A stretch of 64,000 nt of DNA, from the NCBI GenBank assembly GCA_016219645.1, contig JACRLR010000007.1:248001-312000 (forward strand), written 5' to 3'. How positions within the stretch are numbered: position 1 is the stretch's first letter; every line of letters starts with the position of its first letter. Both the position numbers and the translations under genes were made by a program. Under the pieces are notes generated by a model. The model saw only the letters and a list, made by a program, of their open reading frames with translations, ran no database searches and had not been told where the DNA came from. Shown here in pieces: positions 1-48,804 of this stretch. The stretch is from Nitrospirota bacterium (lineage in GTDB: Bacteria; Nitrospirota; Nitrospiria; Nitrospirales; Nitrospiraceae).

Positions 1-1655
1 TCCTCGTGAAGCGTGTTGTGGCAATGCATGACGTACTTGCCCAAGAAGGTCCTGAACCGGATATAGATCTTCACTTCATCCCCCGGCTCAAGCACAACGA
101 CGTCGTGACGGCCTTGCTCTTCAAGGCCCGGGACCTCGCCGTTGCGCAGGAGGATCCGGAATTCTTCCAGGTGAATGTGGATGGGATGGGCCCAGCCTCC
201 TCCGCCATTCTTGAGGGTCCAGATTTCCGGCTGACCCTGTTTGATGGTGAAGGTGGGGATGTCGCCGTCGAAGAAATTGCCGTTGATGGCCCACGCACCG
301 TTCGTCCGCTCGAACCGAAATGTCCGCTGGTGCTGCTGCGCTGTGGCCAGATCCATCACCGGCATCTGGCGCAAGGTGGATGGGACCTGGCTGAAGTCCT
401 CCTCGGCGCCGACTGCGTCACGATCCACGATGAATTTGAGGACCGGCGATCCGGGATGGAGCAACTTGCCCGTCGGCTTCCGCCCGTCCTTCTGCTCCAG
501 GTTATTCTCGAGGATAATCTCGGTGCCGATGGGATACTCGGAAAAGTCGATGATGACATCCCGCCGGTTGGCGACACCCAACCCGACGTGCTCAACCAGC
601 AGCGGTGACTCCAACAGATTGCCGTCGGTGGCGATGAGGGTCATCCGCCTGTGATTGCTCAGCGAGAATTCATAAAACCGCGAAGGCCCTCCGTCGAGCA
701 ACCGGAAGCGATACTTCCGCCTGGCGACATTGAAATAGGGTTGAATCTTTCCATTGACCGCCCACTTGTCCCCCAGGAATCCGTCGAAATTGAAGGGGTC
801 GAACCATAACTGGCCCGAACTGTCGAACGCCTTGTCCGTGAACATGAGCGGGACGTCGAAGGCGCCGCTCGGCAATCGCAGGGCCTGCGGATTGGGGTCC
901 TGCTCGTTGCCGGAATCCACGTCGTCGAAGTAGAAATGGAAACCGGCGAGACCGCGGTAGACGTTCTGGGACGTAAAGTCCACGCGATGGTCGTGGTACC
1001 AGAGAGTGCCGAGGGCCTCACGCGGATCGTTGCCCGCCAAGACGATCGGAAAATGATGGTCTCTGTATTGGCCCGAGATGAGGAAGCTGGTCGGGTGTCC
1101 GTCACTGAATGATTCCTGGTGCCCGTTGTGGTTGTGGGTCGAGGTCTCCGGCACGCCGAGGCCGACATGGTTGATCGGCAGTTGATTACGGAACCGCACG
1201 ATCTTCGGCTGCCCGTACCGCGCGATCATCGTCGGACCAGGGGTGATGCCTTCGAACCCCCAAATCTCCTGAGGGGGAAGTTCGGGATGAAAACTGTGCA
1301 TGCCAGGCTTGATATCGATCTGATAGAGTTCATTCACCGGACCCGGGTCTGACCCGAACCCCTTATTCAGCTGGTGCTCCGCCTGATTGACCGGTGGAGT
1401 CAGACTCGCCACTTGCGGGAGAATCGGCGGGATCGACAATGGCACGACCCAGGGTGTCGTGGCCGGACTCTTGCCCCCCGGCATCCCCTGTAATCCCTCC
1501 GGTATGGGCATTGGATCCGTCCCGGGCGGCGGTGGTGGAGGAGGGGGCGGGCAGACTTCCTGAGCGCGTGCGTACTTCAGCAGGCCCAAGCCGGCCAAGG
1601 TGGCGCCTCCGGTCACCAGACTCCATTTCATGAAACCGCGACGTGAACTCTTCAT
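1..1655 (-). CDS. Multicopper oxidase, Tat-exported (3' end cut by window edge)
   Basis: Reading frame open from the ATG at 1655 to the window edge, 551 codons seen. The N-terminus has a twin-arginine motif (SSRRGFMKW) with a hydrophobic stretch ending ARAQ, so the protein is predicted to be exported folded through Tat. A run of eight prolines follows CP in the mature start. Type-1/trinuclear copper motifs are all present: HNHNGHQ, LWYHDH, HPIHIHLEEF and, at the last codons, MHCHNTLHE. This is the three-cupredoxin-domain family (CotA/bilirubin-oxidase/CueO-like), which oxidises phenols, metals or similar donors while reducing oxygen to water; the substrate cannot be read from sequence. Probably only the last few tens of residues are missing. 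It is codirectional with, but about 1 kb downstream of, the LEPR genes. Confidence 0.93.
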   Translation of the reverse strand, partial: MKSSRRGFMKWSLVTGGATLAGLGLLKYARAQEVCPPPPPPPPPGTDPMPIPEGLQGMPGGKSPATTPWVVPLSIPPILPQVASLTPPVNQAEHQLNKGFGSDPGPVNELYQIDIKPGMHSFHPELPPQEIWGFEGITPGPTMIARYGQPKIVRFRNQLPINHVGLGVPETSTHNHNGHQESFSDGHPTSFLISGQYRDHHFPIVLAGNDPREALGTLWYHDHRVDFTSQNVYRGLAGFHFYFDDVDSGNEQDPNPQALRLPSGAFDVPLMFTDKAFDSSGQLWFDPFNFDGFLGDKWAVNGKIQPYFNVARRKYRFRLLDGGPSRFYEFSLSNHRRMTLIATDGNLLESPLLVEHVGLGVANRRDVIIDFSEYPIGTEIILENNLEQKDGRKPTGKLLHPGSPVLKFIVDRDAVGAEEDFSQVPSTLRQMPVMDLATAQQHQRTFRFERTNGAWAINGNFFDGDIPTFTIKQGQPEIWTLKNGGGGWAHPIHIHLEEFRILLRNGEVPGLEEQGRHDVVVLEPGDEVKIYIRFRTFLGKYVMHCHNTLHE

Positions 1656-2691: not shown

Positions 2692-3360
2692 TTAGCGGAT
2701 CCGGTTGCTCACATTCTTGACGGTAAACTTGTAGTTCCCCGTCGCATCGGTGAACGTCACTGTATCGGCATAAGTCCCGACGGCGGTGTGCGTCGTGCTG
2801 CTCAGATCCAGCCCGGCGCTCAAGTCCTCGCCCAACACCCCCGTCGCCGTCCCCGTCGCCTGATGCGGCAAGCCATCGTAGAGCACGTCGTATCCGGTCA
2901 GCGTGATCACGGCATTGGCCTTGTTGATCGTGCTCTTCACGTTCTTGAGCGTATCTTTATAGTTGCCCGTCACGTCCGTAAAGGTGACCGTGTCGATATA
3001 CGTCCCCGCGTTGGTGTGCGACGTGACGCTCATATTTAGGCCAGCCAGGCTTTCGCCCAGCACCCCCGTCGCCGTGCCCGTCGCCTGGTGCGCGAACCCG
3101 TCATAGGTGCCGTAGTAGCCGGTCAGGCTAATCACCGCGTTGGCCTTGTTGATCGTGCTCTTCACGTTCTTAATCGTATCTTTGTAGTTGCCCGTCACGT
3201 CCGTAAAGGTGACCGTGTCGATATACGTCCCCGCGTTGGTGTGGGACGTGACGCTCATGTTCAGGCCGGCCAGGCTCTCGCCCAACACGCCCGTCGCCGT
3301 CCCCGTCGCCTGGTGCGCCGCCCCGTCGTAGGTCCCGTAGTACCCGGTCAGGACGAGCGT
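2692..3360 (-). pseudogene. Out-of-frame C-terminal part of LEPR-4
   Basis: This frame encodes two complete MBG repeats of the type GYYGTYDG...GVLGESLAGLNMSV...NTGNYK-like and the conserved C-terminus ending NVSNRIR. It belongs to the gene that starts at 7813 but is shifted by one base because of the 91-bp tandem duplication at 3270-3451. Removing one copy restores a single frame of 1,676 codons. As sequenced, this part has no start of its own and would not be translated as part of LEPR-4. Confidence 0.85.
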
Positions 3361-6300
3361 CCAGGCTCTCGCCCAACACGCCCGTCGCCGTCCCCGTCGC
3401 CTGGTGCGCCGCCCCGTCGTAGGTCCCGTAGTACCCGGTCAGGACGAGCGTGGCGTTGGCCTTGTTGATCACGATGGCCACGCTGCCGTTCGCATCGTTG
3501 TAGTTAGTCCCGCCGCTGAACGACCAGTTTGCTGTCCCGCCAGGCGCATTGGTGAAGCTCGCACCCAGGTTCAGGCCGGCATTCAAGTTCACGCCGCCTA
3601 TGCCTGTCGCGCTACCCGTCGCCCCGTGCGCTGTCGCATCATAGACGCCGGTGTAGCCGCTCACGGTGATCGTCGCGTTCGCCTTGGTGATGTTCGCCGT
3701 CGACGTCGCAGTGGACGACAACAGGCTGTAGTTGGTCGCCTCCGTGCCGGTGATCCCCAGGCCCGTGAGGGTCACGGTCTTGCCGTTGCCTGCGTTGGCA
3801 TCGTCGAAGGTGGCAACGCCGCCGGTCAGGCTCACGTTGTCCGGAGCGATGACTCCGTTGAGCGTCATGACCAAGCCGGTCGTAGCCGTGTTGCCGTCAT
3901 ACACCTTGTTGTTCACGGCGAAGCTGGCCGTGAGTTGTTTGGCCGTGATAGCCGCCGTGCTCGTGATAGTGGACGACGCCAGGCTGTAGTTGGTCGCCTC
4001 CGTACCGATGAGCGTCGCGCCCGTCATGTTCACCAACTTGGCAGGGCCGACGATCGAAGAGTTGAAGGCGACCGAGGTGAAGGCCAGGGTCACGTTGTCT
4101 GGAGCGATGACTCCATCGACCGTCGTGACCAGGCCTGTCACCGATGTGTTGCCGTCATACGCCTTGTCGTTCACGGTAAAAGTGACCGTGAGCTGCTTTT
4201 GCGTGATAGCAGCCGTGCTCTGGACGAAGGAGGACGCCAGGCTATAGTTGCCCGCGTCTACTCCGATCAGAATCAAGCCAGTGAGGTTCACCAGCTTGGT
4301 GGGGCCGGCGATCACCGAGTTGAAGGCGACCGTGCCAAAGTCCCAATCCACGTCATCCGTGCCGATAAATCCTGTGAGATTCCCGATCAAGCCGGTCGCG
4401 GTCGTATTGCCGTCATAGACTTTGTCGTCCACGGTGAAACTGAAATCAAGCTGCAACGCCGTGATGTCAGCCAGCGCATTGGCGACCAATGTCAGATTGT
4501 AGTTGCCTGCATCCGTGCCGAAAAGGGCCGCGTTCAGGAGCGTCACGGTCTTGTCAATACCGACGTCCTTCGTATCGAAGTCCGCCTGGTCAAAGGTCAG
4601 GATCACATCATCACCCACTATGGTTCCCGCGAGCGATGTCCCGGACACGGCGGCCAGAGTAGTCCCGTCATAGACCTTACTGTCCGCCGCGAAGCTGCCC
4701 GTGATGTCCAGGGCCGTGATGTCCGCCGTCGTCGTTGCGACCGACAGCAGGCTGTAGTTGCCTGATGCCACGCCGCCGAGCGTCGCGCCCGTGAGTGTCA
4801 CCGTCTTGCCGGTGCCGACATTCTTGCCGTCGCCGACGATTAACACATCGTCGAAGCTCGCAGTGCCGCCGGTCAGGCTCACGAGGCCGACATCGCCAGC
4901 GAGGACTCCCGTGAGCGACGTCGATGCCACACTGGCCGAAGTGGTGCCATCATAGACCTTGTGGTCTGCTGTGAAACTGCCCGTGATTCCCAAGGCCACG
5001 ATGTTCGCTGTCGTCGTGATGGGCGACAGAGACAGAGTATAGTTACCCTGATCCGCACCGGTAAGCGCCGCGCCAGTCAGCGTCACAGTCTTGCCTATGC
5101 CGGCATTCGCATCGTCGAAGGCAGCAGTGCCGCCGGTCAGACTCACATCGTCACCCAGGATGGCTCCCGTGAGGGTCCTGGTCACTACGAAGGCCACGGC
5201 GTTGCCGTCATAGACTTTGTTCGCCGCCGTGAAGTCGCCCTTCCCCGCAGCCACACCTGTGAGCGTCGCGCCGGTGAGTGTCACGGTCTTGCCGGCCCCG
5301 ACATTCTTGTCGGCCAAGGTCGCAGTGCCGCCGCTCAGGTCCACGAGGCCCAGGTCACCAATGAGGACTCCCGTGAGCGACGTCGATGCCACGCTGGCCG
5401 CAGTGGTACCGTCATAGACCTTGTTGTTCGCCGTGAAGCTGCCGGTGATCGCCAGAGCCGTGATGCTCGCCTGGTCCGTAATAGCGGCCGGCGACAGGAC
5501 GTAGTTGCCCGCGGCTGCTCCGCCTAGCGTTGCGCCAGTGAGAGTCACGGTCTTGTTGATGCCGGCATTCGCGTCGTCGAAGGTTGCGATGCCACCGTCC
5601 AGAGTCACATCATCGAGCCCGATGACTCCCAAGAGCGATGTGTTCTGCGCAGTCGCGTCAGTGGTGCCGTCATAGACCTTGTTGTTCGCCGTGAAGCTGC
5701 CGGTAATTTCCAAGGCCGAGATGCTGGTAATGACGTCCCCACTAAAATCGTTATAGTTTCCCGCGCCGCCAATGAAATTGATTGTGTCGGTGAAGAGCCC
5801 GGCATTGGTGTGCAGCGGGCCGGTCATCAGGATCTCGCCCAAGACTCCCACAAGCGTGGCCCCATGGGCTGCTCCATCATAGACACCGATGTAGTCAACG
5901 GGCGTGACGTCAGCCTTGTTGATGACAATTTCGACAGTGCCCGCAATGGCGCTACTGGCATTCTCGTAGTTCCCCGTGAGATCGGTGTAGTTCCAGTTCG
6001 CTGTTCCGCCTGGTACGTTAGTAAAGGTGTCACTCACCAGGCCGGCGCTCAGATCCTCGCCCAAGACGACCCCCACAACCGTCGCCCCATGCGCCAATCC
6101 GTCGTAGGTGCCGTTGAAGCCTGTCACAGTCACGGTAGCCTTGCTCACATCCACTATCGTGCTGCCCGAGGTGCTGCCAAAGAAGGTTGCCGGGGCGGTG
6201 AAGACTGCATGGATCTGATTATGTAGGCCGGCTGTGAGGGTCGCGATGTTCAGTGTAAAGGTTGAATCCAATCCGAGGCTACCGTCGAAGTTGCCGAACC

Positions 6301-7813
6301 CCAGTGAGTTCCCCACCCCATCAAAGAACTCGACCGTGCCGATCGGAGCGCCTGCATCAGGAACCAAGGCTGTGACGGTCGCGGTGAGAGTGACCTGATC
6401 TCCATAGGTGGTGGCGTTTGTACTAGCGGAGATCGAGGTGGTCGTATTGACAGTCACCTCGTTAATCACGATGTCCACAGTACCGAACTGAGGATCATAG
6501 TTGTTGTTGCCGCTGAAGGTCCAGTCGGCTACGTGGGTCCCTATCGCGGTGAAGCTCGGACCCAAATCCAGGAGACCGCTCAAGTCCTCGCCGAGTACGC
6601 CTATTGCCGTGCCGGTCGCTCCATGTGGTTGATTGTCGAAGGCTCCGATAAAGCCGTTCACTGTGACGGACGCTGCTGCCTTATCGATATCCGCCAGAGC
6701 CGTGGCGACCGACGTCAGGTTGTAGTTGCCTGCATCTGCGCCGAAGAGGGTCGCGCCGATAAGGGTCACGGTTTTATTGAAGTCGGCGTCCGCATCGTTG
6801 AAGGTCGCAATACCACCGCCCAGGGCCACCTCGTCGAGACCGACAACTCCACTGAGATCGAGGTCTGTAAACAATACGAAGGCAGCAGTGGTGCCATCGT
6901 AGGCCCTGCTCTCCGCTCCGAAGCTGCCTGTGATGTTCTTCTGGTTGACTGTATGGTCGACCGCTACGGACGGACTGTCATTGAAGCTGTCGGTGCCGTT
7001 ATCGCCGCCGGTGAAGACTGCATGGATCGAATAGGAGCCGGCAGCGAGCTGAGTCAGAGTGGCAGCTGAGAGGGTGACGCTAAAGACCGAAGACAAGCCA
7101 CTGCCGGGGGTGGCACTGGAGGTGGCCCCCAGTGAATTATTCAGGGCATCAAAGAACTCCACCGTACCGATCGGGTTGGTCGTTCCGCCAGCCGAAGGCG
7201 TCACTGTCGCGGTAAAGGTCACATCGTCTCCATAGGTGGACGTAGCGGAACTGGCAGTGACCACGGTGCTTGTGTTGACATTGGCGTCCGTGAAGGCGTG
7301 GGTAGCCATAGCCCCGGACTCTTGGCCGGCGGCAGTCACTAAGAGAGTCGAGTTCCGGTACTGCTCCTCCACATACCAGGTCGTGCTGATGCTGCTGTTC
7401 ACCATCATGTCGTTGTCCGGCGCAATCCAATCTGCCACGCCGTCGCCGCTCACATCCGATCCCAGATGGGCCGTAAACCCGCCCATTCCGTCGACGACAT
7501 ACCAGGCTTCGTTGCCCGCCGGTCCCACGCCGGTCGTTGAGCCGCTGTAATCAGCCATGCCGTCGGTGCGGGTGACCTGGAAGCTCACCATTTCACCGGC
7601 TGAGAATTGTAAACCGTCGCCGGCCTGATTCGACGTGGTAATCACCGCTGTCTCGCGCGGCGCATAGTCCTGATGGTCGGTGGTCACCACCGCCGCAGTC
7701 ATGGGCGTGGCCGACAGCAGCAAACGTGGTTCCAGCGACTCCACTGTAAAATCATTGGCGCGCGGCTCACGTCGGTTACGCTTTTTGAGATTAAGCAGTT
7801 TCTTGAGCTTCAT
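3170..7813 (-). CDS. LEPR-4: giant MBG/YDG repeat protein with LEPR leader, frameshifted near 3' end
   Basis: 1,547 codons as sequenced. It starts MKLKKLLNLKKRNRREPRAN with a good ribosome site (AGGAG, 7 nt). The leader has the LEPR-XLL signature LEPRLLLSA around residues 28-36. An N-terminal module shared by three paralogues follows (DYAP..TAVITTSN; SDVSGDGVADW), then an Ig-like repeat, about ten YDG repeats (KVYDGTT...KTVTLTGA...AGNY) and MBG repeats (GxYDGxAHxATG...TNAG). Such proteins are usually surface-exposed adhesins or matrix proteins. No classical signal peptide is visible. The last 75 or so residues are out-of-frame nonsense caused by the 91-bp duplication; the true C-terminus is at 2692. 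Likely cargo of the export genes at 16-25 kb. Confidence 0.88.
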   Translation of the reverse strand: MKLKKLLNLKKRNRREPRANDFTVESLEPRLLLSATPMTAAVVTTDHQDYAPRETAVITTSNQAGDGLQFSAGEMVSFQVTRTDGMADYSGSTTGVGPAGNEAWYVVDGMGGFTAHLGSDVSGDGVADWIAPDNDMMVNSSISTTWYVEEQYRNSTLLVTAAGQESGAMATHAFTDANVNTSTVVTASSATSTYGDDVTFTATVTPSAGGTTNPIGTVEFFDALNNSLGATSSATPGSGLSSVFSVTLSAATLTQLAAGSYSIHAVFTGGDNGTDSFNDSPSVAVDHTVNQKNITGSFGAESRAYDGTTAAFVLFTDLDLSGVVGLDEVALGGGIATFNDADADFNKTVTLIGATLFGADAGNYNLTSVATALADIDKAAASVTVNGFIGAFDNQPHGATGTAIGVLGEDLSGLLDLGPSFTAIGTHVADWTFSGNNNYDPQFGTVDIVINEVTVNTTTSISASTNATTYGDQVTLTATVTALVPDAGAPIGTVEFFDGVGNSLGFGNFDGSLGLDSTFTLNIATLTAGLHNQIHAVFTAPATFFGSTSGSTIVDVSKATVTVTGFNGTYDGLAHGATVVGVVLGEDLSAGLVSDTFTNVPGGTANWNYTDLTGNYENASSAIAGTVEIVINKADVTPVDYIGVYDGAAHGATLVGVLGEILMTGPLHTNAGLFTDTINFIGGAGNYNDFSGDVITSISALEITGSFTANNKVYDGTTDATAQNTSLLGVIGLDDVTLDGGIATFDDANAGINKTVTLTGATLGGAAAGNYVLSPAAITDQASITALAITGSFTANNKVYDGTTAASVASTSLTGVLIGDLGLVDLSGGTATLADKNVGAGKTVTLTGATLTGVAAGKGDFTAANKVYDGNAVAFVVTRTLTGAILGDDVSLTGGTAAFDDANAGIGKTVTLTGAALTGADQGNYTLSLSPITTTANIVALGITGSFTADHKVYDGTTSASVASTSLTGVLAGDVGLVSLTGGTASFDDVLIVGDGKNVGTGKTVTLTGATLGGVASGNYSLLSVATTTADITALDITGSFAADSKVYDGTTLAAVSGTSLAGTIVGDDVILTFDQADFDTKDVGIDKTVTLLNAALFGTDAGNYNLTLVANALADITALQLDFSFTVDDKVYDGNTTATGLIGNLTGFIGTDDVDWDFGTVAFNSVIAGPTKLVNLTGLILIGVDAGNYSLASSFVQSTAAITQKQLTVTFTVNDKAYDGNTSVTGLVTTVDGVIAPDNVTLAFTSVAFNSSIVGPAKLVNMTGATLIGTEATNYSLASSTITSTAAITAKQLTASFAVNNKVYDGNTATTGLVMTLNGVIAPDNVSLTGGVATFDDANAGNGKTVTLTGLGITGTEATNYSLLSSTATSTANITKANATITVSGYTGVYDATAHGATGSATGIGGVNLNAGLNLGASFTNAPGGTANWSFSGGTNYNDANGSVAIVINKANATLVLTGYYGTYDGAAHQATGTATGVLGESLDARPDRVLRDLRRGGAPGDGDGDGRVGREPGRPEHERHVPHQRGDVYRHGHLYGRDGQLQRYD
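3270..3451. repeat. Exact 91-bp tandem duplication
   Basis: Positions 3270-3360 and 3361-3451 are identical over 91 bases. Since 91 is not a multiple of three, the duplication shifts the LEPR-4 reading frame. No substitutions separate the copies, so it is very recent or an assembly artefact. Confidence 0.95.
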
Positions 7814-8146: not shown

Positions 8147-8505
8147 TTAGAGAATCCGGTTGCTCACGTTCTTAACGGTAAACTTGTAGTTGCCCGTCAC
8201 ATCGGTGAAGGTCACGACATCGAGATAGGTCCCGACGTTGGTGTGCGTCGTGCTGCTCAAGTCCAGCCCGGCGCTCAAGTCCTCACCAAGCACGCCCGTC
8301 GCCGTCCCCGTCGCCGTATGCGCCAGGCCATCAAAGACCACGCTGTAGCCGGTCACGGTGATCACCGCGTTGGCCTTGTTGATCGTGCTCTTGACGTTCT
8401 TGATCGTATTCTTATAGTTGCCCGTCACGTCCGTGAAGGTCACGGCATCAATGTACGTGCCGGCATTCGTATGGCTCGTGACGCTCAGGTTCAGCCCGGC
8501 CAGGC
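8147..8505 (-). pseudogene. Out-of-frame C-terminal part of LEPR-3
   Basis: Encodes the last one and a half MBG repeats and the conserved tail NYKFTVKNVSNRIL, in a frame different from the main LEPR-3 reading frame. Comparison with the sister repeat at about 8685-8745 shows 37 bases missing at about 8505. Adding them back gives one frame of 738 residues from 10326 to 8147. As sequenced it lacks a start. Confidence 0.85.
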
Positions 8506-10326
8506 TCGCGCTGTCCCGTCATAGGTGCCGACATAGCCCGTCAACGAGATCGTCGCGTTCGCCTTGGCGATACTGCTGCTAACGTTCTTGACGGTATTCT
8601 TATAGTTGCCCGTCACATCGGTGAACGTCACCGTATCGAGATACGCGCCGGCATTCGTGTGCGACGTGACGCTCAGGTTCAGCCCGGCCAGGCTCTCGCC
8701 CAGGACCCCGGTGGCCGTTCCCGTCGCCTGGTGCGCTGTCCCGTCGTAGGTGCCGACATAGCCCGTCAACGAAATCGTCGCGTTCGCCTTGGCGATACTG
8801 CTGATGACGCTCCCGCTCGTACTGTTATAGTTTCCCGTGCTGTCAGTGAAGGTCCAGCTATCGCTGTAGATGCCGGCGTTGCTGTGCGGCGTACCGTTTA
8901 GAACCAGCCCACTCAGGCTCTCGCCCAACACACCAGTTGCGGTGACAGTGGCTGTATGAGCCGCTCCATCGTAGACACCGTGATAGCCACTAGTAACAAT
9001 CGTCGCGTTCGCTTTGGTAATGGTGATGCTGTTGGTCCCGCTGGCGGGGTTATAGTTGGGATTGGCGAAGGTCCAGCTCTCTGTATAGCTGCCCACGTTG
9101 GTGGGCTTCGTCATAATCAGGGAACCGCTCAAGTCCTCACCAGGGGCGCCGACGATCGTGGCCCCATGGGCCAACCCGTCATAGACTCCCGTGTAGTCGC
9201 TCACGACGACAGTGGCCGGAGTGATGTCAGCCTGGTCACCAGTGACCGAGTCCAAGATATAGTTGCCGGCGGCCGAACCGGTGAGGATTCCACCAGTGAA
9301 CGTCACAACTTTGTTGACGCCGACATTTGCCGTATCGAAGTTTGCCGAACCGGTCAGGCCCACGTTGCCCAGATCGATCAGCTCGACATTGTTCAACGTG
9401 GCAACTCCGGGCGCTACAGTAGTACCGTCGTAGACCTTGGAAACGTCGGCCGTGAAGCGGCCAGTGATGTGCTTCTGAGTCACCTCGTGCGAGATGTTTG
9501 CAGAGGTGCTGTCATTGAAACTGCCTGCTGTGCCGGTGAAGACTGCATGGACCGAATGAACGCCGGACGTAAGAGTGAACGTGAAGGCGTTCGTTTTAAA
9601 TTGCACGACCCCATCAGCACCGCCGCCACTGCTGACGGTCTCGATCCCCAGTGATATTCCATCGACGAAGAACTCCACACTCCCGGTCGGGTCAACAGTC
9701 CCAGCTGCTGCCGTAACCGTCGCGGTGAAATCTACATTCGTTCCATACACGGTGGTGGCGGCAGTAGCCGTGAGCACGGTCGTCGTGTTCGTCCCGGCGT
9801 CTGTAAAGGCCTGCGTCACCATAGCCCCGGACTCTTGACCGACAGCCGTCACTAAGAGAGAGGAGTTCCGATACTGTTCCTCCACAAACCAGGTGGTACT
9901 GATGCTGCTGTTGACGGTGAGATCGTTGTCCGGCGCAATCCAGTCGGCCACGCCGTCGCCGCTCACATCCGATCCCAGATGGGCGGTAAATCCGCCGATA
10001 CCGTCGGTGACATACCAGGCTTCGTTGCCGGTCGGTCCCACGCCGGATGTTGAGCCGCTGTATTCCGCCATGCCGTCGGTGCGGCTCACCTGAAAGCGAA
10101 CTAATTCACCGGCCCCGAATTGCAGGCCGTCGCCATTGGTATTCGACGTAGTAATCACCGCGGTCTCACCCGGCGCATAATCCACATGGTCGGTGGTCAC
10201 CACGGCGGCCGTCATGGGTGTGGCCGACAGCAGCAGGCGGGGTTCCAGCGACTCGAGTACAAAAGCATTGGCGCGGGGCTTACGGCTGTTACGTTTCTTG
10301 AGACTGAACAGTTTCTTGAATTTCAT
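8491..10326 (-). CDS. LEPR-3: MBG/YDG repeat protein with LEPR leader, frameshifted near 3' end
   Basis: 611 codons from the MKFKKLF start at 10326. This start is chosen over one ten codons earlier because GGGAG sits 7-8 nt before it and all paralogues begin alike. LEPRLLLSATPM is followed by the shared N-terminal module, one Ig-like repeat, one YDG repeat (KVYDGTTVAPG) and about five MBG repeats. The frame ends prematurely in TARAWPG because 37 bp of a repeat have been lost. Predicted to be exported and exposed like the other LEPR proteins. The family is known; the export route is inferred from the neighbours. A mobile-element-like insertion lies in its 5' leader. Confidence 0.87.
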   Translation of the reverse strand: MKFKKLFSLKKRNSRKPRANAFVLESLEPRLLLSATPMTAAVVTTDHVDYAPGETAVITTSNTNGDGLQFGAGELVRFQVSRTDGMAEYSGSTSGVGPTGNEAWYVTDGIGGFTAHLGSDVSGDGVADWIAPDNDLTVNSSISTTWFVEEQYRNSSLLVTAVGQESGAMVTQAFTDAGTNTTTVLTATAATTVYGTNVDFTATVTAAAGTVDPTGSVEFFVDGISLGIETVSSGGGADGVVQFKTNAFTFTLTSGVHSVHAVFTGTAGSFNDSTSANISHEVTQKHITGRFTADVSKVYDGTTVAPGVATLNNVELIDLGNVGLTGSANFDTANVGVNKVVTFTGGILTGSAAGNYILDSVTGDQADITPATVVVSDYTGVYDGLAHGATIVGAPGEDLSGSLIMTKPTNVGSYTESWTFANPNYNPASGTNSITITKANATIVTSGYHGVYDGAAHTATVTATGVLGESLSGLVLNGTPHSNAGIYSDSWTFTDSTGNYNSTSGSVISSIAKANATISLTGYVGTYDGTAHQATGTATGVLGESLAGLNLSVTSHTNAGAYLDTVTFTDVTGNYKNTVKNVSSSIAKANATISLTGYVGTYDGTARAWPG

Positions 10327-10348
10327 GTTGGAATCTCCCGTTGGTTTA

Positions 10349-10527
10349 ACCCGCATAATTCACGAGGGCTTCTACTGCAACCGCCGATACGCTGTTCCGA
10401 CGGGCGTGCTCGCCACTCAGTCGGTCAACATACTGTTCAAGTATGCTTCCCTCCTTCCCGGCTGCGCTTGCCCCTCTCATGACGCGTCTCAGCCGTTTCG
10501 TCACGAACCCTCGTGAATAATGCGGGC
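10349..10527. mobile_element. 179-bp MITE-like element in the LEPR-3 5' leader
   Basis: Terminal inverted repeats CCCGCATAATTCACGAGGG (10350-10368) and its complement at 10508-10526 match at 18 of 19 positions, and TA flanks both ends. The paralogous leaders of LEPR-2 and LEPR-4 read GGTTAGTGAT without interruption, so they act as empty sites. It has no coding capacity and would need a transposase in trans. Confidence 0.75.
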
Positions 10528-11074: not shown

Positions 11075-13597
11075 TTAGAGGATCCTGTTGCTCACGTTCT
11101 TGACGGTAAACTTGTAGTTGCCCGTCACATCCGTGAAGGTCACCACATCGAGATACGTCCCGACGTTGGTGTGCGTCGTGCTGCTCAAGTCCAGCCCGGC
11201 ACTCAAGTCCTCACCAAGCACCCCCGTCGCCGTCCCTGTTGCCGTGTGGGCTAACCCATCAAAGGTCACACTGTAGCCGGTTACCGTGATCACGGCATTG
11301 GCCTTGTTGATCGTGCTCTTCACGTTCTTGAGCGTATTCTTATAGTTGCCCGTCACGTCCGTGAAGGTCACCGCATCAATATACGTGCCCGCATTCGTAT
11401 GGGACGTGACGCTCAGGTCCAGCCCGGCGCTCAAGTCCTCCCCCAACACTCCGGTCGCGGTCCCCGTCGCCTGGTGCGCCGTTCCGTCGTAGGTCCCGAC
11501 GTAGCCCGTCAGGGTGATGACAGCGTTGGCCTTATTGATCGTGCTCTTCACGTTCTTGATCGTGTTCTTGTAGTTGCCCGTCACGTCCGTGAAGGTCACC
11601 GTATCGATATACGTGCCCGCATTCGTATGGGACGTGACGCTCAGGTCCAGCCCGGCACTCAAGTCCTCGCCCAACACTCCCGTCGCGCTGCCCGTCGCCT
11701 GGTGCGAGACTCCGTCATAGGTCCCGACGTAGCCCGTCAGGCTGATGACGGCGTTGGCTTTATTGATCGTGCTCTTCACGTTCTTGACCGTGTTCTTATA
11801 GTTGCCCGTCACGTCCGTGAAGGTCACCGTATCGATGTACACACCCGCATTCGTATGGGACGTGACGCTCAGGTCCAGCCCGCTCAGGCTCTCGCCCAAC
11901 ACCCCCGTCGCGCTGCCCGTCGCCTGGTGCGCCACCCCGTCGTAGGTCCCGACGTAGCCTGTCAGGCTGATCGTGGCATTCGCCTTGGTAACCACGATGG
12001 CCACGCTGCCGTTCGCGTCGTTGTAGTTGGTCCCGCCGCTGAACGCCCAATTGGCCGTCCCGCCTGGGACATTGGTGAAGCTTGCGCCCAGGTTCAGGCC
12101 GGCGTTCAAGTCCTCGCCCAAGACGCCCGTCGCGGTGCCGGTCGCCCCGTGCGCCGCCGCATCATAGACGCCGGTGTAGCCGCTCACGGTAATTGTCGCG
12201 TCAGCCTTGGTGATATCCGCTGTCGTCGTATTGACCGGCGCCAGGCTGTAGTTGCCAGATGCCGCGCCGCTCAGCGCCGCGCCCGTGAATGTCACAGTCT
12301 TGCCGGTGCCGGCGTCTGCCGTGTCAAATGTTGCCGTACCGCCGCTCAGACTCACGTCGTCACTCCCGATTACTCCTGAAATCGACGGGGTCCCCACGAC
12401 TGTCGCTGCCTGGCTGCCGTCGTAGACCTTGTTGTCCACAGTGAAGTTGACCGTCAGTTCCTTGGCTGTGATGTTCCCTGTGCTCGTGAGGGTAGACGAG
12501 ACCAGGCTGTAGTTGAGGCTTTCCGTGCCGATGAGCGTCGCGCCTGTCAGCGTCACGATCTTGTCGCTGCCCACATTTGCATCGCTAAAGGTGAGCGAAC
12601 TGAAGGCCAGGCTCACATCGTCCGGCGCCAGGACTCCCGTTAGCGTCACGGTCACGTCGGCTGCTGAGACTGAGGTGGTGCCGTCATACACCTTGTCGTT
12701 CACGGTGAAGCTGGCAGTGATTTGTTTCGCCGCCACCTGGTGTGTGATGCTGGCGGAGGTGCTGTCATTAAAAAACAGTTTGTCTCCTGTGACTGGGTCT
12801 ACTGCGCCGATAAATACGGCATGGAGATTCGGATGGTTTCCCTCGATGAGATACTGATAGGAGGGGATGCTCCAGGTCGATGTTCCAGCTCCTGTGCTGT
12901 CAGGGACAGAGGCGGTCCACATCAACGCCGACCCATCCCAGAACTCCACCGTGCCGGTCGGTGCCTCGGTACCAACCGCCGCTGTCACCGTCGCGGTAAA
13001 CGTCACCACATCTCCATAGGTAGACGTAGCGGAACTCTGGGTCAGCACGGTGGCCGTGTTCACTGCTTCATCCGTAAAGGCCTGGGTTGCCACAGCCCCG
13101 GACTCTTGACCGGCAGCCGTCACTAAGAGGGAAGAGTTTCTGTACTGTTCCTCCACAAACCAGGTCGTGCTGATGCTGCTGTTCACGGTAAGATCGTTGT
13201 CCGGCGCGATCCAGTCGGCGATTCCGTCTCCGCTCACATCCGATCCGCGATGCGCGGCAAACCCGCCGACGCCGTCGACGACATACCAGGCTTCGTTGCC
13301 TGCAGGACCGACGTCGGCCGTCGAGCCGCTGTAATCCGCCATGCCGTCGGTGCGGCTTACTTGAAAACGCACCAGTTCGCCTGCATCGAATTGTAGACCC
13401 TCGCCGGCTTGATTCGAAGTGGTAATCACGGCCGTCTCACCCGGCGCATAGTCCAGATGGTCGGTGGTCACCACCGCCGCAGTCATCGGCGTGGCCGACA
13501 GCAGCAGGCGCGGTTCCAGTGACTCCAGGACAAATGCGTTGGCGCGCGGCTGACGCCGGTTGTTCTTTTTGCAGGCAAACAGTTTCTTGAACTTCAT
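11075..13597 (-). CDS. LEPR-2: intact MBG/YDG repeat protein with LEPR leader
   Basis: 840 aa, the only one of the four cargo genes without a visible rearrangement. The start MKFKKLFACKKNNRRQPRAN is set by GGGAG 7-8 nt upstream; an ATG five codons earlier overlaps that site. Order: basic leader, LEPRLLLSATPM, N-terminal module with SDVSGDGIADW, Ig-like repeat, two YDG repeats (KVYDGTTSV; KVYDGSQAA), one GGTNYND-type MBG repeat, then five MBG repeats. The longest MBG unit type is 76 codons (228 bp), nearly identical from copy to copy, and the protein ends NVSNRIL. Probable role is a surface or matrix adhesin. Near-identical ends among paralogues point to ongoing gene conversion. Confidence 0.9.
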   Translation of the reverse strand: MKFKKLFACKKNNRRQPRANAFVLESLEPRLLLSATPMTAAVVTTDHLDYAPGETAVITTSNQAGEGLQFDAGELVRFQVSRTDGMADYSGSTADVGPAGNEAWYVVDGVGGFAAHRGSDVSGDGIADWIAPDNDLTVNSSISTTWFVEEQYRNSSLLVTAAGQESGAVATQAFTDEAVNTATVLTQSSATSTYGDVVTFTATVTAAVGTEAPTGTVEFWDGSALMWTASVPDSTGAGTSTWSIPSYQYLIEGNHPNLHAVFIGAVDPVTGDKLFFNDSTSASITHQVAAKQITASFTVNDKVYDGTTSVSAADVTVTLTGVLAPDDVSLAFSSLTFSDANVGSDKIVTLTGATLIGTESLNYSLVSSTLTSTGNITAKELTVNFTVDNKVYDGSQAATVVGTPSISGVIGSDDVSLSGGTATFDTADAGTGKTVTFTGAALSGAASGNYSLAPVNTTTADITKADATITVSGYTGVYDAAAHGATGTATGVLGEDLNAGLNLGASFTNVPGGTANWAFSGGTNYNDANGSVAIVVTKANATISLTGYVGTYDGVAHQATGSATGVLGESLSGLDLSVTSHTNAGVYIDTVTFTDVTGNYKNTVKNVKSTINKANAVISLTGYVGTYDGVSHQATGSATGVLGEDLSAGLDLSVTSHTNAGTYIDTVTFTDVTGNYKNTIKNVKSTINKANAVITLTGYVGTYDGTAHQATGTATGVLGEDLSAGLDLSVTSHTNAGTYIDAVTFTDVTGNYKNTLKNVKSTINKANAVITVTGYSVTFDGLAHTATGTATGVLGEDLSAGLDLSSTTHTNVGTYLDVVTFTDVTGNYKFTVKNVSNRIL

Positions 13598-14183
13598 GTC
13601 GGAATCTCCCATTGGTTAGTGATATGAACCGCGGAATTTTTGTTTGAAGGTGCTCTTCCCCATCTCCCTCATTGACGACGGACTCAGCAAAAGTCCTGCT
13701 ATGTGTACACTTGTCGCTGGGTGGGAAAAAATCCATCTTAGGTGCTGGAAGATCCCCCATAGGGGGGATAGGAGTGAGAGAGGGGGCAGCCAACAATCCT
13801 TCTTGCTCGCAGAGCCCCCACGGTACAGAGGATGGAACAGTGCCCGTGTCGGCCTTTTGCTCCCGGAACAGAAGAGGGGATGGAGCCTGATGATCTTCTG
13901 TGCTCGCGCAACGCGCGGTCGAAGACTCCCCTCGTTGGACGCGCGCAATAGAAAATCAATCAGCCCCCATCCCTGAAGAGATAGCAAGCGAGCTTGGAGG
14001 GGTTATCTGTAACCTCGTTCGACGGCCGCAGTCAGGCCTGACACGGGTACTGTTCCAGACGAGGGCAAATAAGCAAGCTTGGAGGGAACAGTTATATCTT
14101 TCGATGCGCGCAGTGAAGGAAAGGTTGCCTGTCCCCTATGGGGAAGCTGAAGTATCAGAAGGTGCGGTGCAAGGGCGTACGGT
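13598..14183. other. Intergenic region between LEPR-2 and LEPR-1
   Basis: Starts with the LEPR leader (CCGCGGTTCATATCACTAAC on the coding strand). It has a small palindrome ATCCCCCATAGGGGGGAT near 13752 and the segment at about 13949-14000 that recurs at about 2166-2210. A second copy of AAGCAAGCTTGGA lies near 14072. No believable gene. Confidence 0.55.
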
Positions 14184-14229: not shown

Positions 14230-15891
14230 TTAGAGGATCCTGCTGCTGACGTTCTTGACAGTATTCTTATAGTTGCCCGTCACGTCCGTGAACGTCACAA
14301 CATCGAGATATGTGCCCACATTGCTGTGCGTCGTGCTGCTCAGGTCCAGCCCGGCGCTCAGGTCCTCACCGTTGACGCCGGTCGCCGTCCCCGTCGCCGT
14401 ATGCGCCAGGCCATCGTAGATCACATCATAGCCGGTCACCGTGATTACGGCATTGGCTTGGTTGATCGTGCTCTTCACGTTCTTGAGCGTATTCTTATAG
14501 TTGCCCGTCACGTCCGTGAAGGTCACCGTGTCGATGTACACGCCGGCATTCGTGTGGGATGTGACGCTCATGTTCAGCCCGCTCAGGTCCTCCCCCAAGA
14601 CCCCCGTCGCCGTGCCCGTCGCCTGGTGCGAGGACCCGTCGTAGGTGCCGTAGTAGCCCGTCAGGCTGATCACCGCGTTCGCCTGCTTGATCGTGCTCTT
14701 CGCGTTCTTGAGCGTATTCTTATAGTTGCCCGTCACGTCGGTGAAGGTCACCGCATCGATGTACACGCCCGCATTCGCATTCGTATGGGACGTGACGCTC
14801 AGGTCCAGCCCGGCGCTCAGGTCCTCACCGTTGACGCCGGTTGCCGTGCCCGTCGCCTCGTGTGCGGCCCCGTCGTAGGTTCCATAGTAGCCGGTCAGGA
14901 CGAGCGTGGCGTTCGCCTTGGCGATGTTCGCCGACGTCGTATTGACCGACGTCAGGCTATAGTTGCTCGCGTCCAGACCGCCGAGCGTCGCCCCCGTGAG
15001 TGTCACGGTCTTGTTGCTGCCCACATTCGCATCGACGAAGGCCGCAGTGCCGCCGCTCATGCTCACATCGTCACTCGCGATGACTCCAGCAAGCGTCTGG
15101 GTCTGCACGGTCGCCGTCGTCGTGCCGTCGTAGGTCTTGTTCGCTACTGTGAAGCTGGCCGTGAGACTCTTCTGGCTCACCGTCTGTTCGAGATTTCCGG
15201 AGGTGCTGCTCTTGTATCGAAGATGTTCTAGCCACTCATGGTGGCCTCGCCAATGGTTCTCTTGCGGCCCCCCATCATGCCGGTGATCGTCCGGCGGTCG
15301 GTGTAGATCCCGATGTTCGTGTGCGTTGTGCCGCTCAGATCCAGCCCACTCAGGCTCTCGCCCTGTACCGCCGGTAAACACGGCGTGGATCGCATGAGTG
15401 CCGGCCGTGAAGTTCGATACCGAAATGGTAAAGATTGCGGTCGAGCGACTGCCTCTACTGGCGGTGTCATCGATTCCCAGTGACCTTGTTCCATCAAAGA
15501 ACTCGACAGAACCTACCGGTCTGGCAGCTCCGTCCGCAGCCGTCACTCTTGCCGTAAACGTGACCGCATCTCCATAGATGGACGTGGCGGCGCTGGAGGT
15601 CAGAGTGGTAGTCGTACTTATGCCGCAATTGATGGCGAGGTCGTCCCTCCATCCGTTCGCGCCTGGCTTCCGGTGAGAGTGATTGCTGCCTCCGTTGCCC
15701 ATTGTGTCCGAAATGCAAATCACTGCGCTCTCGACATGCGAATGGCCCACGTGGTCGTGAGTCACATCCACGGGCGTCATGGGTGTGGCTGACAGCATCA
15801 AGCGGGGTTCCAGCGATTCCAGCACAAACGCATTGGCGCGCGGCGCGCGGCGGTGACGTTTCTTAAGATTGAACAGGTTTGTAAGTTTCAC
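14230..15891 (-). CDS. LEPR-1: short MBG/YDG repeat protein with LEPR leader and internal scar
   Basis: 553 aa. The GTG at 15891 is preferred because GGGAG precedes it and the product then begins (V)KLTNLFNLKKRHRRAPRAN like its paralogues. The leader reads LEPRLMLSATPM. The SDVSGDG N-terminal module is replaced by a His-rich stretch (DHVGHSHVE...GSNHSHRK). An Ig-like repeat, one YDG repeat (KTYDGTTTATV) and three MBG repeats follow, ending NVSSRIL. At 15215-15368 about 150 bp of an MBG repeat is inserted out of frame: the used frame reads GREPEWAGSERH..., while GESLSGLDLSGTTHTN is in another frame. Because the insert is about 150 bp, the downstream frame is kept. It is the first cargo gene after the export operon. 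Confidence 0.87.
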   Translation of the reverse strand: MKLTNLFNLKKRHRRAPRANAFVLESLEPRLMLSATPMTPVDVTHDHVGHSHVESAVICISDTMGNGGSNHSHRKPGANGWRDDLAINCGISTTTTLTSSAATSIYGDAVTFTARVTAADGAARPVGSVEFFDGTRSLGIDDTASRGSRSTAIFTISVSNFTAGTHAIHAVFTGGTGREPEWAGSERHNAHEHRDLHRPPDDHRHDGGPQENHWRGHHEWLEHLRYKSSTSGNLEQTVSQKSLTASFTVANKTYDGTTTATVQTQTLAGVIASDDVSMSGGTAAFVDANVGSNKTVTLTGATLGGLDASNYSLTSVNTTSANIAKANATLVLTGYYGTYDGAAHEATGTATGVNGEDLSAGLDLSVTSHTNANAGVYIDAVTFTDVTGNYKNTLKNAKSTIKQANAVISLTGYYGTYDGSSHQATGTATGVLGEDLSGLNMSVTSHTNAGVYIDTVTFTDVTGNYKNTLKNVKSTINQANAVITVTGYDVIYDGLAHTATGTATGVNGEDLSAGLDLSSTTHSNVGTYLDVVTFTDVTGNYKNTVKNVSSRIL

Positions 15892-15998
15892 GCGAAATCT
15901 CCCTTGGTGATTGGTGATAAGAGCCATGGAATAGTTATACAACGGCGCCATGACGCGGGCATTCCCCGGAGGTTGTCCCTCAAAAGTGGGGGCTGGGC

Positions 15999-16111: not shown

Positions 16112-17443
16112 CTACCGCAGTTCTTCGACTTGTCCCATCGCGCGCGCCAGATTCACGCGCGAGGCGTTCGCCCGAAACAAGCCGTCGATCATGTTATCCC
16201 GCGCGCGTGAGAGAGAAAAGAGCGAGTTGGATAACTCCAACGTGTTCGAACTCAGCACCCGCACCCGTTCTCGGGCGAGCTGCACTTCGGTCAGCGCCGC
16301 CTTGAGCCCGTCCTTGGCGATCCGGAGCTGTTCTTTCGCCGAGACGAGCGTCACCAGCGCTTCCCGCAACTCCATCGTGATCTGGCGCGTCACGATGTCC
16401 ATCTTGATCTCTTCTTGAAGAAGACGGCTGCGGCTCTCGCCGATCCGCCCCTGCCGTTGGCCCCCATCAAAGATGGGGACCGACAAGGTTACTCCGACGT
16501 TGTAGGTGCTCAGCGTGCTGTCAATATGGTTGCCGATGAGCCCGTAATTGCCATCCGCCTGCAGCGACGGCAGTCGCTCCCCCTTGACCGAACTCAGCAT
16601 GAGGCTCGACACCTGCAATCGCTGCTCCTGGGCCTTGAGTTCCGGCCGCTTGACGAACGCCACCTCCCGGGCATAGTCCTGGGTGGGCACCGGCTCATCC
16701 GGCGCTTTGAGTTCATCGGTGAGGATGAGCGTCGCATCAAAGGTGATGCCCAAGGCATTGGTCAGGATCAGCTTGGTCCGCTCGACATCACTCTTGGCCA
16801 ACTCCAAGCGTTGCCGTTCATTCTCCAGTTGGGTTTCCAGCCTGGCCGTATCGAGGCCCGTGGCCATTCCGCCGCTCTGCCGGCTTTTAATGTAGGCCAC
16901 GAGTTCCTTGTACAGCTCCACATTCGCCGTCCGTGCGGCCACGCTCTCGACGTTCCGCAGAACTTCCAAGTAATTCAAGGCCACAGTCGCCATCGTGTCA
17001 TTCTTCGTCGTCTCGGATTCCCCTTCCGCGACGGCCAGGGCCGCGCGCGAGGCGCGCCACCGTTCAATCAAGCTCCAACTGAAGAGCGACTGCGACAGGG
17101 TGCCTCGGGCATCGGCGACATTAAAGGGATCGCTCCGGATCGGCGCCCCACCAAGCGTCCCTTGAAAGAAGGTCTGATTGTTGTATTTGGCCGACGAGGC
17201 CAGGTTCGGCAAGAGGGCGCCGAGTTGCGTGGTGGCGACGCCCCGCGCCGCTTCAATCCGTTCTTTGTACAAGCGCACATTGGGATTCTTGTCCAGCGCC
17301 GCCTCAATGGCGTCCTTCAAACTCAGCTTGAGGACCGGCAGCTCCGGTGGGGGCTGCAGCGACGACTCGGCAGCTTGGCTGTGCCCCGCACACAGAAGAC
17401 CAGCCACAAAGATTGCCAACATCACGCCGGTGTAGATTCGCAT
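16112..17443 (-). CDS. TolC-family outer membrane efflux/secretion protein
   Basis: 443 aa with a cleavable signal peptide (LAIFVAGLLCAGHSQA|AES). Two OEP repeats of long coiled-coil helices follow, with family markers LKDAIEAALDKNPNVRL early and LSVPIFDGGQRQGRIGESR in the second half. TolC proteins trimerise into an outer-membrane barrel plus periplasmic tunnel and are the exit duct of type I secretion and efflux machines. It is the last export gene before four LEPR cargo genes, 133 bp after a HlyD-type adaptor, which supports a secretion role. Confidence 0.92.
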   Translation of the reverse strand: MRIYTGVMLAIFVAGLLCAGHSQAAESSLQPPPELPVLKLSLKDAIEAALDKNPNVRLYKERIEAARGVATTQLGALLPNLASSAKYNNQTFFQGTLGGAPIRSDPFNVADARGTLSQSLFSWSLIERWRASRAALAVAEGESETTKNDTMATVALNYLEVLRNVESVAARTANVELYKELVAYIKSRQSGGMATGLDTARLETQLENERQRLELAKSDVERTKLILTNALGITFDATLILTDELKAPDEPVPTQDYAREVAFVKRPELKAQEQRLQVSSLMLSSVKGERLPSLQADGNYGLIGNHIDSTLSTYNVGVTLSVPIFDGGQRQGRIGESRSRLLQEEIKMDIVTRQITMELREALVTLVSAKEQLRIAKDGLKAALTEVQLARERVRVLSSNTLELSNSLFSLSRARDNMIDGLFRANASRVNLARAMGQVEELR

Positions 17444-17480
17444 ACGGTCGCAGTTCCTTCACTACAAGAAGATCGTGATT

Positions 17481-17573
17481 TGGTCTGTCTGGTCTATTCG
17501 GTCTATCTGGTTGATCTAGTTATTCTCGTTCAACCAAACACACGAGACAGACCGAATAGACCAGACAGACCAG
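17481..17573. repeat. 9-bp-period repeat hairpin with 24-bp perfect arms (array A5)
   Basis: TGGTCTGTC, TGGTCTATT, CGGTCTATC, TGGTTGATC, TAGTTATTC on the left. The first 24 bases (17481-17504) are exactly repeated inverted at 17549-17572. It fills the gap between the HlyD- and TolC-type genes. Confidence 0.85.
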
Positions 17574-17576
17574 TCG

Positions 17577-18461
17577 CTAAGGCCCCTCGGCTGATGACAG
17601 GTGAAAATCCACGGTACACGCCAGGCCGGCGGAAATTGCATTGTTCGGATTCGGCAGTTCCAAGCGCACCCCGAATGTGCCGCTGGCGCTGTCGACGACT
17701 TTGTTCACCACCATAACCTTCGCTTGAAGAACCGGCTGCCCCTTTCCTTCCGGACGTACATCGGCTTTCATGCCGGCTTTCAACTTCCCGAGCAGCGAGA
17801 GCGGCGCAAACACCTCCACTCGCAATGGGTTGATCTGCGCCAGTTTCATCACAGGCGTCTGCTGGCGGGCCATCTCGCCGGGAGACAGCAGCCGATCGAC
17901 AACGACGCCGGCAATCGGACTTCGAATCGTGCGCAGCTGCAGCGCAGCTGTGGCGCGATTCAATTCCAATTCAGCCTGGCGCTTGTGTTCCGATGCATCC
18001 CGATAGGCCGATTCCGCCAAGGCCTTTTCCGTCTGGGCCTCATCGACTTCGTGTTGGGCAATGGAGTTGGTCTTGAACAATTCCTGAGCCCGTTCGAGTT
18101 TCCGGCTGGTAAACCCCATCTTCAGCTGACTGCTCTTCAACGCCGCTTCTGCCTCCGCCTTGGCTTTCGCCAACGCAACAGTCGCCTCTTCGAAGCTCGA
18201 TTCGAGTGTCAAGATCACCTGTCCCTTCGCGACCCAATCTCCCCGGTCCACCGGCACCGTTTGAATGAGACCCTCCACCGGGGTCCCGATGGAAATCTCG
18301 TCATAGGGTGTGATCACGCAGGCCGTTCCCGCTGCCCATACAGACGGCACCGACAGGGCAGAGAGTGCCGCTGCGACGATCAGGGTGCCCGTCGCACACT
18401 GCCCCTTCAGCCGCCATTTGTGTGGCTGTTTCACTTCCTGACATTCCACGAACATGTCCAT
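17577..18461 (-). CDS. HlyD/RND-type periplasmic adaptor protein
   Basis: 294 aa. Signal peptide (ALSALSVPSVWA|AG), a lipoyl half-motif (GLIQTVPVDRGDWVAKGQVIL), an alpha-helical hairpin (residues about 80-165, rich in Ala/Glu/Lys), the second lipoyl half (LRTIRSPIAGVVVDRLLSPG) and a beta-barrel domain. Membrane-fusion proteins of this kind bridge an inner-membrane motor and TolC. No RND or ABC pump gene accompanies it, so its inner-membrane partner is more likely the SecA/M50 module upstream. The gap to the SecA-like gene (97 bp) holds a 7-bp-period array. Confidence 0.9.
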   Translation of the reverse strand: MDMFVECQEVKQPHKWRLKGQCATGTLIVAAALSALSVPSVWAAGTACVITPYDEISIGTPVEGLIQTVPVDRGDWVAKGQVILTLESSFEEATVALAKAKAEAEAALKSSQLKMGFTSRKLERAQELFKTNSIAQHEVDEAQTEKALAESAYRDASEHKRQAELELNRATAALQLRTIRSPIAGVVVDRLLSPGEMARQQTPVMKLAQINPLRVEVFAPLSLLGKLKAGMKADVRPEGKGQPVLQAKVMVVNKVVDSASGTFGVRLELPNPNNAISAGLACTVDFHLSSAEGP

Positions 18462-18508
18462 TCAATCACCCTATTCCATTGTCCCGACTTGGGAACTGCT
18501 CCGGCCCC

Positions 18509-18538
18509 CTTCAGCCTTCAGTCTTCAGCCTATCAACC
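18509..18538. repeat. 7-bp-period repeat (array B2)
   Basis: CTTCAGC, CTTCAGT, CTTCAGC, CTATCAA in a row, between SecA-like and HlyD-type genes. Confidence 0.7.
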
Positions 18539-18558
18539 TACGCAGGTTCCCGATTGCC

Positions 18559-22690: not shown

Positions 22691-22700
22691 AAAGTTGCAA

Positions 22701-22834
22701 GTGGTGAGTGGTGAGTGGTGAGTGGCGAGTGGACGAATCGGTCCATAATCATGAGGCTAGAAACTCGCAACTCGAAACCTCCCGCGCCTTGCGCTTCCTA
22801 CTTCCTACTAGCTACTTGCTACTTGCCAGTTACT
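22701..22834. repeat. 7-bp-period repeat hairpin (array B3)
   Basis: GTGGTGA three times and GTGGCGA on the left (22701-22732), GAAACTC/GCAACTC/GAAACCT in the middle, and CTTCCTA/CTTCCTA/CTAGCTA/CTTGCTA/CTTGCCA on the right (from about 22793). It fills the gap between the GAF-HlyD and M50 genes. Confidence 0.75.
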
Positions 22835-22837
22835 TTG

Positions 22838-41107: not shown

Positions 41108-41386
41108 CTAGATCCACAAAACCTTTTTACATAGAGCCGTTGGACTACAAATGATCAGTGAAACTCTTACAGCGAGAAGGATTTGAGTGTCGAAGGTATG
41201 TAACATGGGCGAGCAGGGATCTATCAGGCTGGCAAGAACGCACGATGGAAGACTTGGTGCTAAAAGATCGCTTTCAATACCACCCCAACCAGGATTGCAT
41301 ACGAGTGACGGAGATGACTGGTTCCATTGGAGGCCACTACTCACAAGTGGGTGCTTTCCCTTGGGGAAAAGCGTATTCTTCGCCCC

Positions 41387-44209: not shown

Positions 44210-44234
44210 TCTAGCGTGAAGGAGGAACGCGGCC

Positions 44235-44465
44235 ATGAAAGCTGACGCGAAAAATATTCTGGAAGAGGCCATGCACTTGGAGCCGAGTACCCGTGCCCTT
44301 ATTGCCGAGACACTCTTGGAAAGCCTCGATTTCGAGGAGGACTTTGAGATCTCACAGGCGTGGCAGGATGAGATTCAGCGCCGTTGCGAGCAGATCGATC
44401 GTGGAGAAGTCGGGCTGATTGACTCCGATACCGTGATGGCTGAACTTCGGAAGAAGCACGCCTGA
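44235..44465 (+). CDS. Addiction-module component-type antitoxin
   Basis: 76 aa. ILEEAMHLEPSTRALIAETLLESLD...WQDEIQRRCEQIDRGEV matches the putative addiction module component family (TIGR02574), the antitoxin half of many RelE/ParE pairs. The expected toxin is not next to it; the following gene is a TIGR04255 protein. An orphan antitoxin or a remnant. GGAGG precedes the ATG by 9 nt. Confidence 0.85.
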   Translation: MKADAKNILEEAMHLEPSTRALIAETLLESLDFEEDFEISQAWQDEIQRRCEQIDRGEVGLIDSDTVMAELRKKHA

Positions 44466-44541
44466 TACACGTCCGGTGGGCCCCAGCTTGAACACACTGT
44501 TGGGCCTTCCTTTTCCGAGCGAAAGAACTTAGAATTCAGCC

Positions 44542-45294: not shown

Positions 45295-45722
45295 GCATGG
45301 CAACAATTCGTTCTCCGCAAGCACTACAATATCTCTCTGTCGTGGGAATGAGTCGGGATTCCCAAGTGGTGACGGAACAATGGCTCAAATCGGAGGAGCA
45401 CTACTGGCTTCCGATCACTCGAAGGCCACAAGGAGACGCAGGAAAGTTTCAGGCGCTCGCTGAGACTTGGCGCCGGGAGGTGCAATTTCTGTCCTCCGTT
45501 ACTGAAATGGTGCTCCATCCGGCCTATCAACGCATTATCGGGATGGGTATCGCAGTCGTTCCCCACCTGCTTCGTGAGCTTGAGTGCAGACCGGATCACT
45601 GGTTTTGGGCGCTGACCGCGATTACAGGGGCCGATCCCGTCAAGCTCGAAGACAGAGGCAAGCTGAGAAAGATGACCGAGGCCTGGCTCAGGTGGGGCAA
45701 GGAACAGGGACTGACCTGGTGA
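45291..45722 (+). CDS. Hypothetical protein, middle gene of TIGR04255 cassette
   Basis: 143 aa, not recognised. Soluble, rich in Trp and Arg (TWRREVQFLSSVTEMVLHPAYQRIIGMG; AVVPHLLRELECRPDHWFWALTAITG). Overlaps the TIGR04255 gene by 4 bp and the next gene by 4 bp, showing translational coupling on both sides. Confidence 0.8.
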   Translation: MSMATIRSPQALQYLSVVGMSRDSQVVTEQWLKSEEHYWLPITRRPQGDAGKFQALAETWRREVQFLSSVTEMVLHPAYQRIIGMGIAVVPHLLRELECRPDHWFWALTAITGADPVKLEDRGKLRKMTEAWLRWGKEQGLTW

Positions 45723-47694: not shown

Positions 47695-47707
47695 GTTACG
47701 TAGCACT

Positions 47708-48802: not shown

Positions 48803-48804
48803 CC

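Follow-up and report, generated by a model that had tools for sequence, protein, structure and literature searches.

Tandem LEPR paralogues beside an export-like gene set

The window (the whole stretch of DNA analysed, 64,000 nt in length) covers bases 248001-312000 of the 316,554-base contig C7, which belongs to a 3.65-Mb genome split over 71 contigs. It carries four LEPR paralogues in tandem, all on the minus strand (Table 1). The LEPR-XLL N-terminal domain (NCBIfam NF012209; profile cut-off, 17 bits) was detected in each of them, with scores of 29.3 bits for LEPR-3, 28.8 for LEPR-2, 27.9 for LEPR-4, and 25.6 for LEPR-1. All four paralogues also match the Pfam domains Big_3_5 and YDG, for which LEPR-3 scores 48.3 (cut-off 35.5) and 47.7 (cut-off 25), respectively. 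At their C-terminal ends, all four have MBG-like repeats of about 225 nt each, although the MBG_3 score of LEPR-3 is marginal (25.1 against a cut-off of 25). The C-termini are alike, reading NVS(N/S)RI(L/R), and this includes the downstream frame of LEPR-3. The LEPR paralogues are probably exported, long repeat proteins. In the literature searched, nothing was found in print on the function of LEPR-XLL or on the LEPR-XLL genes of Nitrospira.

On their upstream side, the LEPR genes are immediately preceded by an export-like set of genes (16112-24757). This set is kept beside LEPR genes in three of the 11 relative loci compared (L005, L006, and L025) with 76-95% identity, L005 having only the end of the fourth gene. 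Such conservation beside the LEPR genes suggests that the LEPR proteins are likely substrates of the adjoining set, which is possibly a dedicated exporter of LEPR-XLL proteins. LEPR-4 is followed by a gene (window positions 1-1650, minus strand) that was judged copper-oxidase-like on inspection of its motifs by eye, with 551 aa lying inside the window; a gene of this type also comes after the LEPR genes in L009 and L023. The window further contains a transposase in two ORFs (a DDE_Tnp_1_6 part and a DUF772 part; 39710-41092) beside an integrase, and then a type I restriction system (41327-51895).

Table 1 Positions of the LEPR genes, the frame-changing events and the neighbouring export-like genes in the window.
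Feature	Position	Strand	Remarks
LEPR-1	15951..14230	-	573 aa, open frame
LEPR-2	13612..11075	-	845 aa, intact
LEPR-3	10356..8491	-	621 aa to premature stop; LEPR-XLL, Big_3_5, YDG, MBG repeats
LEPR-4	7813..3170	-	1547 aa to premature stop
Deletion junction, penultimate MBG repeat of LEPR-3	8507..8508	-	Gapped alignment; profile break 21/36 with frame change
Counterpart of the missing 37 bases, sister repeat (LEPR-3 unit 2)	8696..8732	-	Alignment
Broken mosaic repeat	8378..8565	-	Resembles LEPR-3 unit 2 in its 5′ part and LEPR-2 unit 4 in its 3′ part
LEPR-2 unit 4	11306..11533	-	Closest to the broken repeat in its 3′ part; 93.5% over 123 nt
Remainder of LEPR-3, other frame	8147..8500	-	3′ part of broken repeat and intact last repeat; open to usual C-terminal end
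Exact 91-bp tandem duplication breaking LEPR-4	3270..3451	-	Alignment, tandem-repeat search
Remainder of LEPR-4, other frame	2692..3360	-	Three MBG units, open
MBG-like patch of LEPR-1, out of frame	~15363-15316 (to 15283)	-	Inside His/Asp-rich linker
Outer-membrane efflux protein	16112-17443	-	LEPR-1 follows
SecA-like ATPase	18559-20649	-	Without full C-terminus
PqqD/M50-peptidase/HlyD fusion	20543-22690	-	
GAF/HlyD fusion	22838-24757	-	

LEPR-3 lacks 37 bases in its penultimate MBG repeat

The first-pass annotation had reported that, relative to a sister repeat, 37 bases are absent after GGCTC and that LEPR-3 loses its frame just before the last repeats. Both observations were borne out. Alignment of 8441-8560 with the sister repeat showed one single gap of 37 nt at 8507/8508, directly after GGCTC (8503-8507, as read on the plus strand), with no microhomology or end overlap at either edge. 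The MBG profile ends at position 21 in the broken unit (8565-8503) and restarts at position 36 in another frame (8500-8378), and the profile scan placed the last MBG unit of LEPR-3 at 8377-8153. The loss comprises twelve codons plus one base, and is followed by five wrong-frame codons and then a stop at 8491-8493. By both alignment and profile scan, LEPR-3 is a paralogue whose frame is broken by an indel relative to its homologues. In the window and the eight relative loci with MBG hits, 63 of the 69 hits span the missing stretch, so the gap is the derived state. Of the six hits that fail to span it, two are the halves of the broken LEPR-3 unit, one is the initial portion of the LEPR-4 break, one is the out-of-frame patch of LEPR-1, and two are units truncated where a contig ends (L007 and L010).

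The broken unit is also a mosaic. In the 5′ part (8565-8508), 2 of 58 bases deviate from LEPR-3 unit 2, and the first 31 bases past the gap are identical to that unit; beyond them, the sequence follows LEPR-2 unit 4 (8 of 123 bases differ) and not LEPR-3 unit 2. The switch of repeat type lies no more than about 31 nt from the gap. Since both parts have base differences of their own, the broken unit is not a simple chimera of reads from its two nearest relatives; the gap by itself may nevertheless be erroneous. As coding-strand DNA, the missing 37 bases have a calculated fold of -6.2 kcal/mol, ranking 8th of 185 same-length windows in the unit, while folding of the opposite strand ranks weakly (55th of 185).

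Downstream of the break, no decay was detected in the open frame or in the comparison of the last unit with that of LEPR-2. These two last units differ at 22 bases, 18 of which are third positions, corresponding to 19 synonymous codon differences and 1 non-synonymous. The loss is therefore either recent or not real.

Frame changes in LEPR-4, LEPR-1 and the relatives

The earlier comparison of this break with that of LEPR-4 stood in part: LEPR-4 is likewise frame-broken near its 3′ end, but through the exact duplication listed in Table 1 rather than a deletion. This duplication sits in the third-last unit, whereas the LEPR-3 deletion sits in the penultimate one, and the two events (-37 versus +91) moved the frame in opposite directions, which argues against a shared programmed frameshift. 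The right edges of the two events are 8 nt apart in unit coordinates; in simulation, 28% of random placements of two events of these sizes shared an edge that closely, and the shared edge of these two true breaks is unremarkable. Given the opposite shifts, the different units, and this chance, the shared mechanism proposed for both breaks gains little weight. The shared assembly problem offered as its alternative is possible but not specifically indicated, since there are no N gaps and no junction overlap, and the contig has the 91-bp copy as its sole exact tandem duplication with a period of 20-400. Reading the breaks in two ways, as biology or as assembly, was nevertheless right.

LEPR-1 contains an MBG-like patch with 87.5% identity to MBG repeat DNA over 48 nt (or 79% over 81 nt). 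Its E-value is 4e-11, as compared with 7e-4 for the best of 200 shuffles and with 0.04 and 0.14 for the L005 and L006 counterparts, respectively; the patch is specific to LEPR-1 relative to these counterparts. LEPR-1 was considered as a third frame break at the same site, and the domain map has two frame changes on either side of the MBG-like patch, but the frame that is read is the conserved one (L005 and L006). Its His/Asp-rich linker is in this conserved frame, and aligns without gaps to that of L005 across the patch. A short piece of repeat DNA seems to have been transferred out of register into LEPR-1, long enough ago to diverge. Because the patch has diverged, it is unlikely to be an assembly product, and it lends support to the view that ectopic copying, of which we infer the direction and the date, genuinely takes place here.

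The relatives found include the Nitrospira or Nitrospirae MAGs CG24E, WB-IL-04, and L.E.N.18, and the genus search detected the LEPR N-terminal domain in 7 of 32 genomes. The domain order of LEPR-2 is matched by the L005 gene (843 aa). For LEPR-3, no counterpart with equal domain order was found in the relatives. At the DNA level, its N-terminal part is matched best by G018:C56 (the L007 record), at 82% over ~635 nt; this gene was rejected as a counterpart, having a different domain order and being cut by the contig end. The domain map showed one frame change each in LEPR-3 and LEPR-4, none in LEPR-2, and none in the 13 LEPR gene pieces of the relatives, several of which are partial. With LEPR-1 counted as unbroken, broken genes thus number two of four in the window versus none of 13 in the relatives (p ~ 0.04, calculated by hand as 6/136). 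A 5′-truncated LEPR remnant consisting of the last MBG units only (L023:11318-10884, in G026; 216-aa open frame) lies upstream of an unbroken LEPR gene.

A recent deletion as the probable cause of the LEPR-3 break

We consider it fairly probable that LEPR-3 became a C-terminally truncated paralogue through a short deletion that is both real and recent and that struck a repeat prone to recombination. A replication or recombination slip would recently have taken out the 37 bases, hitting a repeat of already mixed origin, with pieces from two repeat types. The ribosome would then run through five codons in the wrong frame and stop, leaving a protein that is about one and two-thirds repeats short and that would keep the LEPR-XLL N-terminus, the Big and YDG domains, and the first MBG repeats. 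In this shortened form, LEPR-3 may still be produced and exported; were the LEPR-XLL end the export mark, export might proceed without the last repeats. The single, unique gap with a switch of repeat type close by favours a real deletion, and the gap is presumably present in the living genome. We infer an origin by slippage or template switching, given that the missing piece can fold on itself, and the coding-strand fold rank of this piece faintly suggests slippage across a fold. Ku-dependent end joining was also considered for the microhomology-free junction, but is not an evident route to it, as the genome gave no hit in a search for Ku genes that was positive in one of 14 control genomes (Bacillus subtilis).

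The most serious competitor, which we regard as possible but clearly the less likely of the two, is an assembly, polishing, or read error, in which the 37 bases were lost when reads of similar repeats were merged or when the polymerase skipped a foldable GC-rich piece, the gene being intact in the organism. The absence of decay downstream of the break fits this reading, and so does the presence of two broken paralogues here against none among the gene pieces of the relatives. The available text of one study (PMC4872057) describes drops in Illumina coverage at GGCNG-type motifs, which would also be in line with an error. Moreover, arrays of this family are difficult to assemble, as the contigs of relatives end within them (L006, L007, L010, and L024): that of L010 starts (L010:1) exactly at the GGTGAGAGCC site of the MBG repeat, and that of L007 ends (L007:11986) about 12 nt beyond this site. 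Both of these contig ends are at GGYGAGAGCC, the place in the MBG repeat where the LEPR-3 and LEPR-4 events also have their edges. On the other hand, exact repeats in the array reach no more than 68 nt once the 91-bp duplication is set aside, and the array should therefore be resolvable with ordinary reads. Neither the LEPR-3 nor the LEPR-4 junction shows an overlap, the contig contains no N, and on either side of the gap the broken unit has base differences of its own. A systematic overlap fault of the assembler was rejected, since the search for exact tandem duplications with periods of 20-400 found none in the 316,554-base contig besides the 91-bp copy. Indel errors are also not general here, because the export-cluster and copper-oxidase-like genes align end to end with those of the relatives.

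We hold a further possibility to be unlikely, namely that template switching has a hotspot in the GGGCGAGAGCCTGG stretch of the MBG repeat, at which the LEPR-3, LEPR-4, and LEPR-1 edges would fall, and that short out-of-register transfers between paralogues would reshape, truncate, or re-frame the secreted repeat proteins of these bacteria. When the LEPR-1 patch was included, the simulated chance of the three-event edge clustering was 0.04-0.08 in the tightest window tried, depending on the number of edges counted for LEPR-1, and 0.05 to 0.17 in wider windows. The same clustering could be taken to reflect phase variation, that is, a regulated on/off switching of LEPR genes through reversible frame changes at a common repeat site, since an event edge lies at GGGCGAGAGCCTGG in two of the four paralogues, or in three when the LEPR-1 patch is included; loss of BadA expression by frameshift is also described in the available text of PMC8859334. 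This explanation is very improbable, however. A simple short repeat is absent at the LEPR-3 junction, where Tandem Repeats Finder detected no simple-sequence tract and only the 225-nt array at 8508-8927, and the 37-nt loss could be restored only by copying from another repeat. In addition, the two frame breaks taken by themselves have a chance of 0.28, and the changes are out of register, unlike the in-frame 225-nt steps expected of repeat recombination. Programmed ribosomal frameshifting past both breaks, which the open next frame beyond each of them would allow, can be practically dismissed, as it would need opposite shift directions (for the loss of 37 and the gain of 91), no X XXY YYZ heptamer was seen by eye in the few overlap codons of LEPR-3, and unbroken paralogues exist.

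Discussion

Frame breaks in repeat-rich surface-protein genes of unfinished genomes call for caution, for they may represent either real truncation or error. If the deletion in LEPR-3 is real, one of the four paralogues located beside a conserved export cluster would recently have lost C-terminal repeats, which would suggest that these repeats can be dispensed with, the N-terminal LEPR-XLL part being retained.

Frame damage in repetitive surface-protein genes is a known kind of event, to which, by analogy, the LEPR-3 case would belong. In E. coli, foldable DNA is reportedly a site of small templated changes through quasipalindrome-associated template switching. Foldable DNA is common to both cases, but the change in LEPR-3 is a plain 37-nt loss, in which no templated mark of the fold was seen. 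A precedent comes from badA of Bartonella henselae, for which the available text of a study based on long-read genomes (PMC8859334) describes a 262-bp deletion that frameshifts the gene in one strain, with pseudogenes flanking it. BadA differs from LEPR-3 in being a trimeric autotransporter with a C-terminal anchor and unrelated domains, and, according to the same text, its case was verified by long reads and its surface expression examined (PMC8859334). As at the LEPR-3 locus, the badA island, as portrayed there, combines a long repetitive adhesin gene, flanking pseudogene copies, domain reshuffling, a frameshift caused by a short deletion, and a sequence that is hard to assemble from short reads (PMC8859334).
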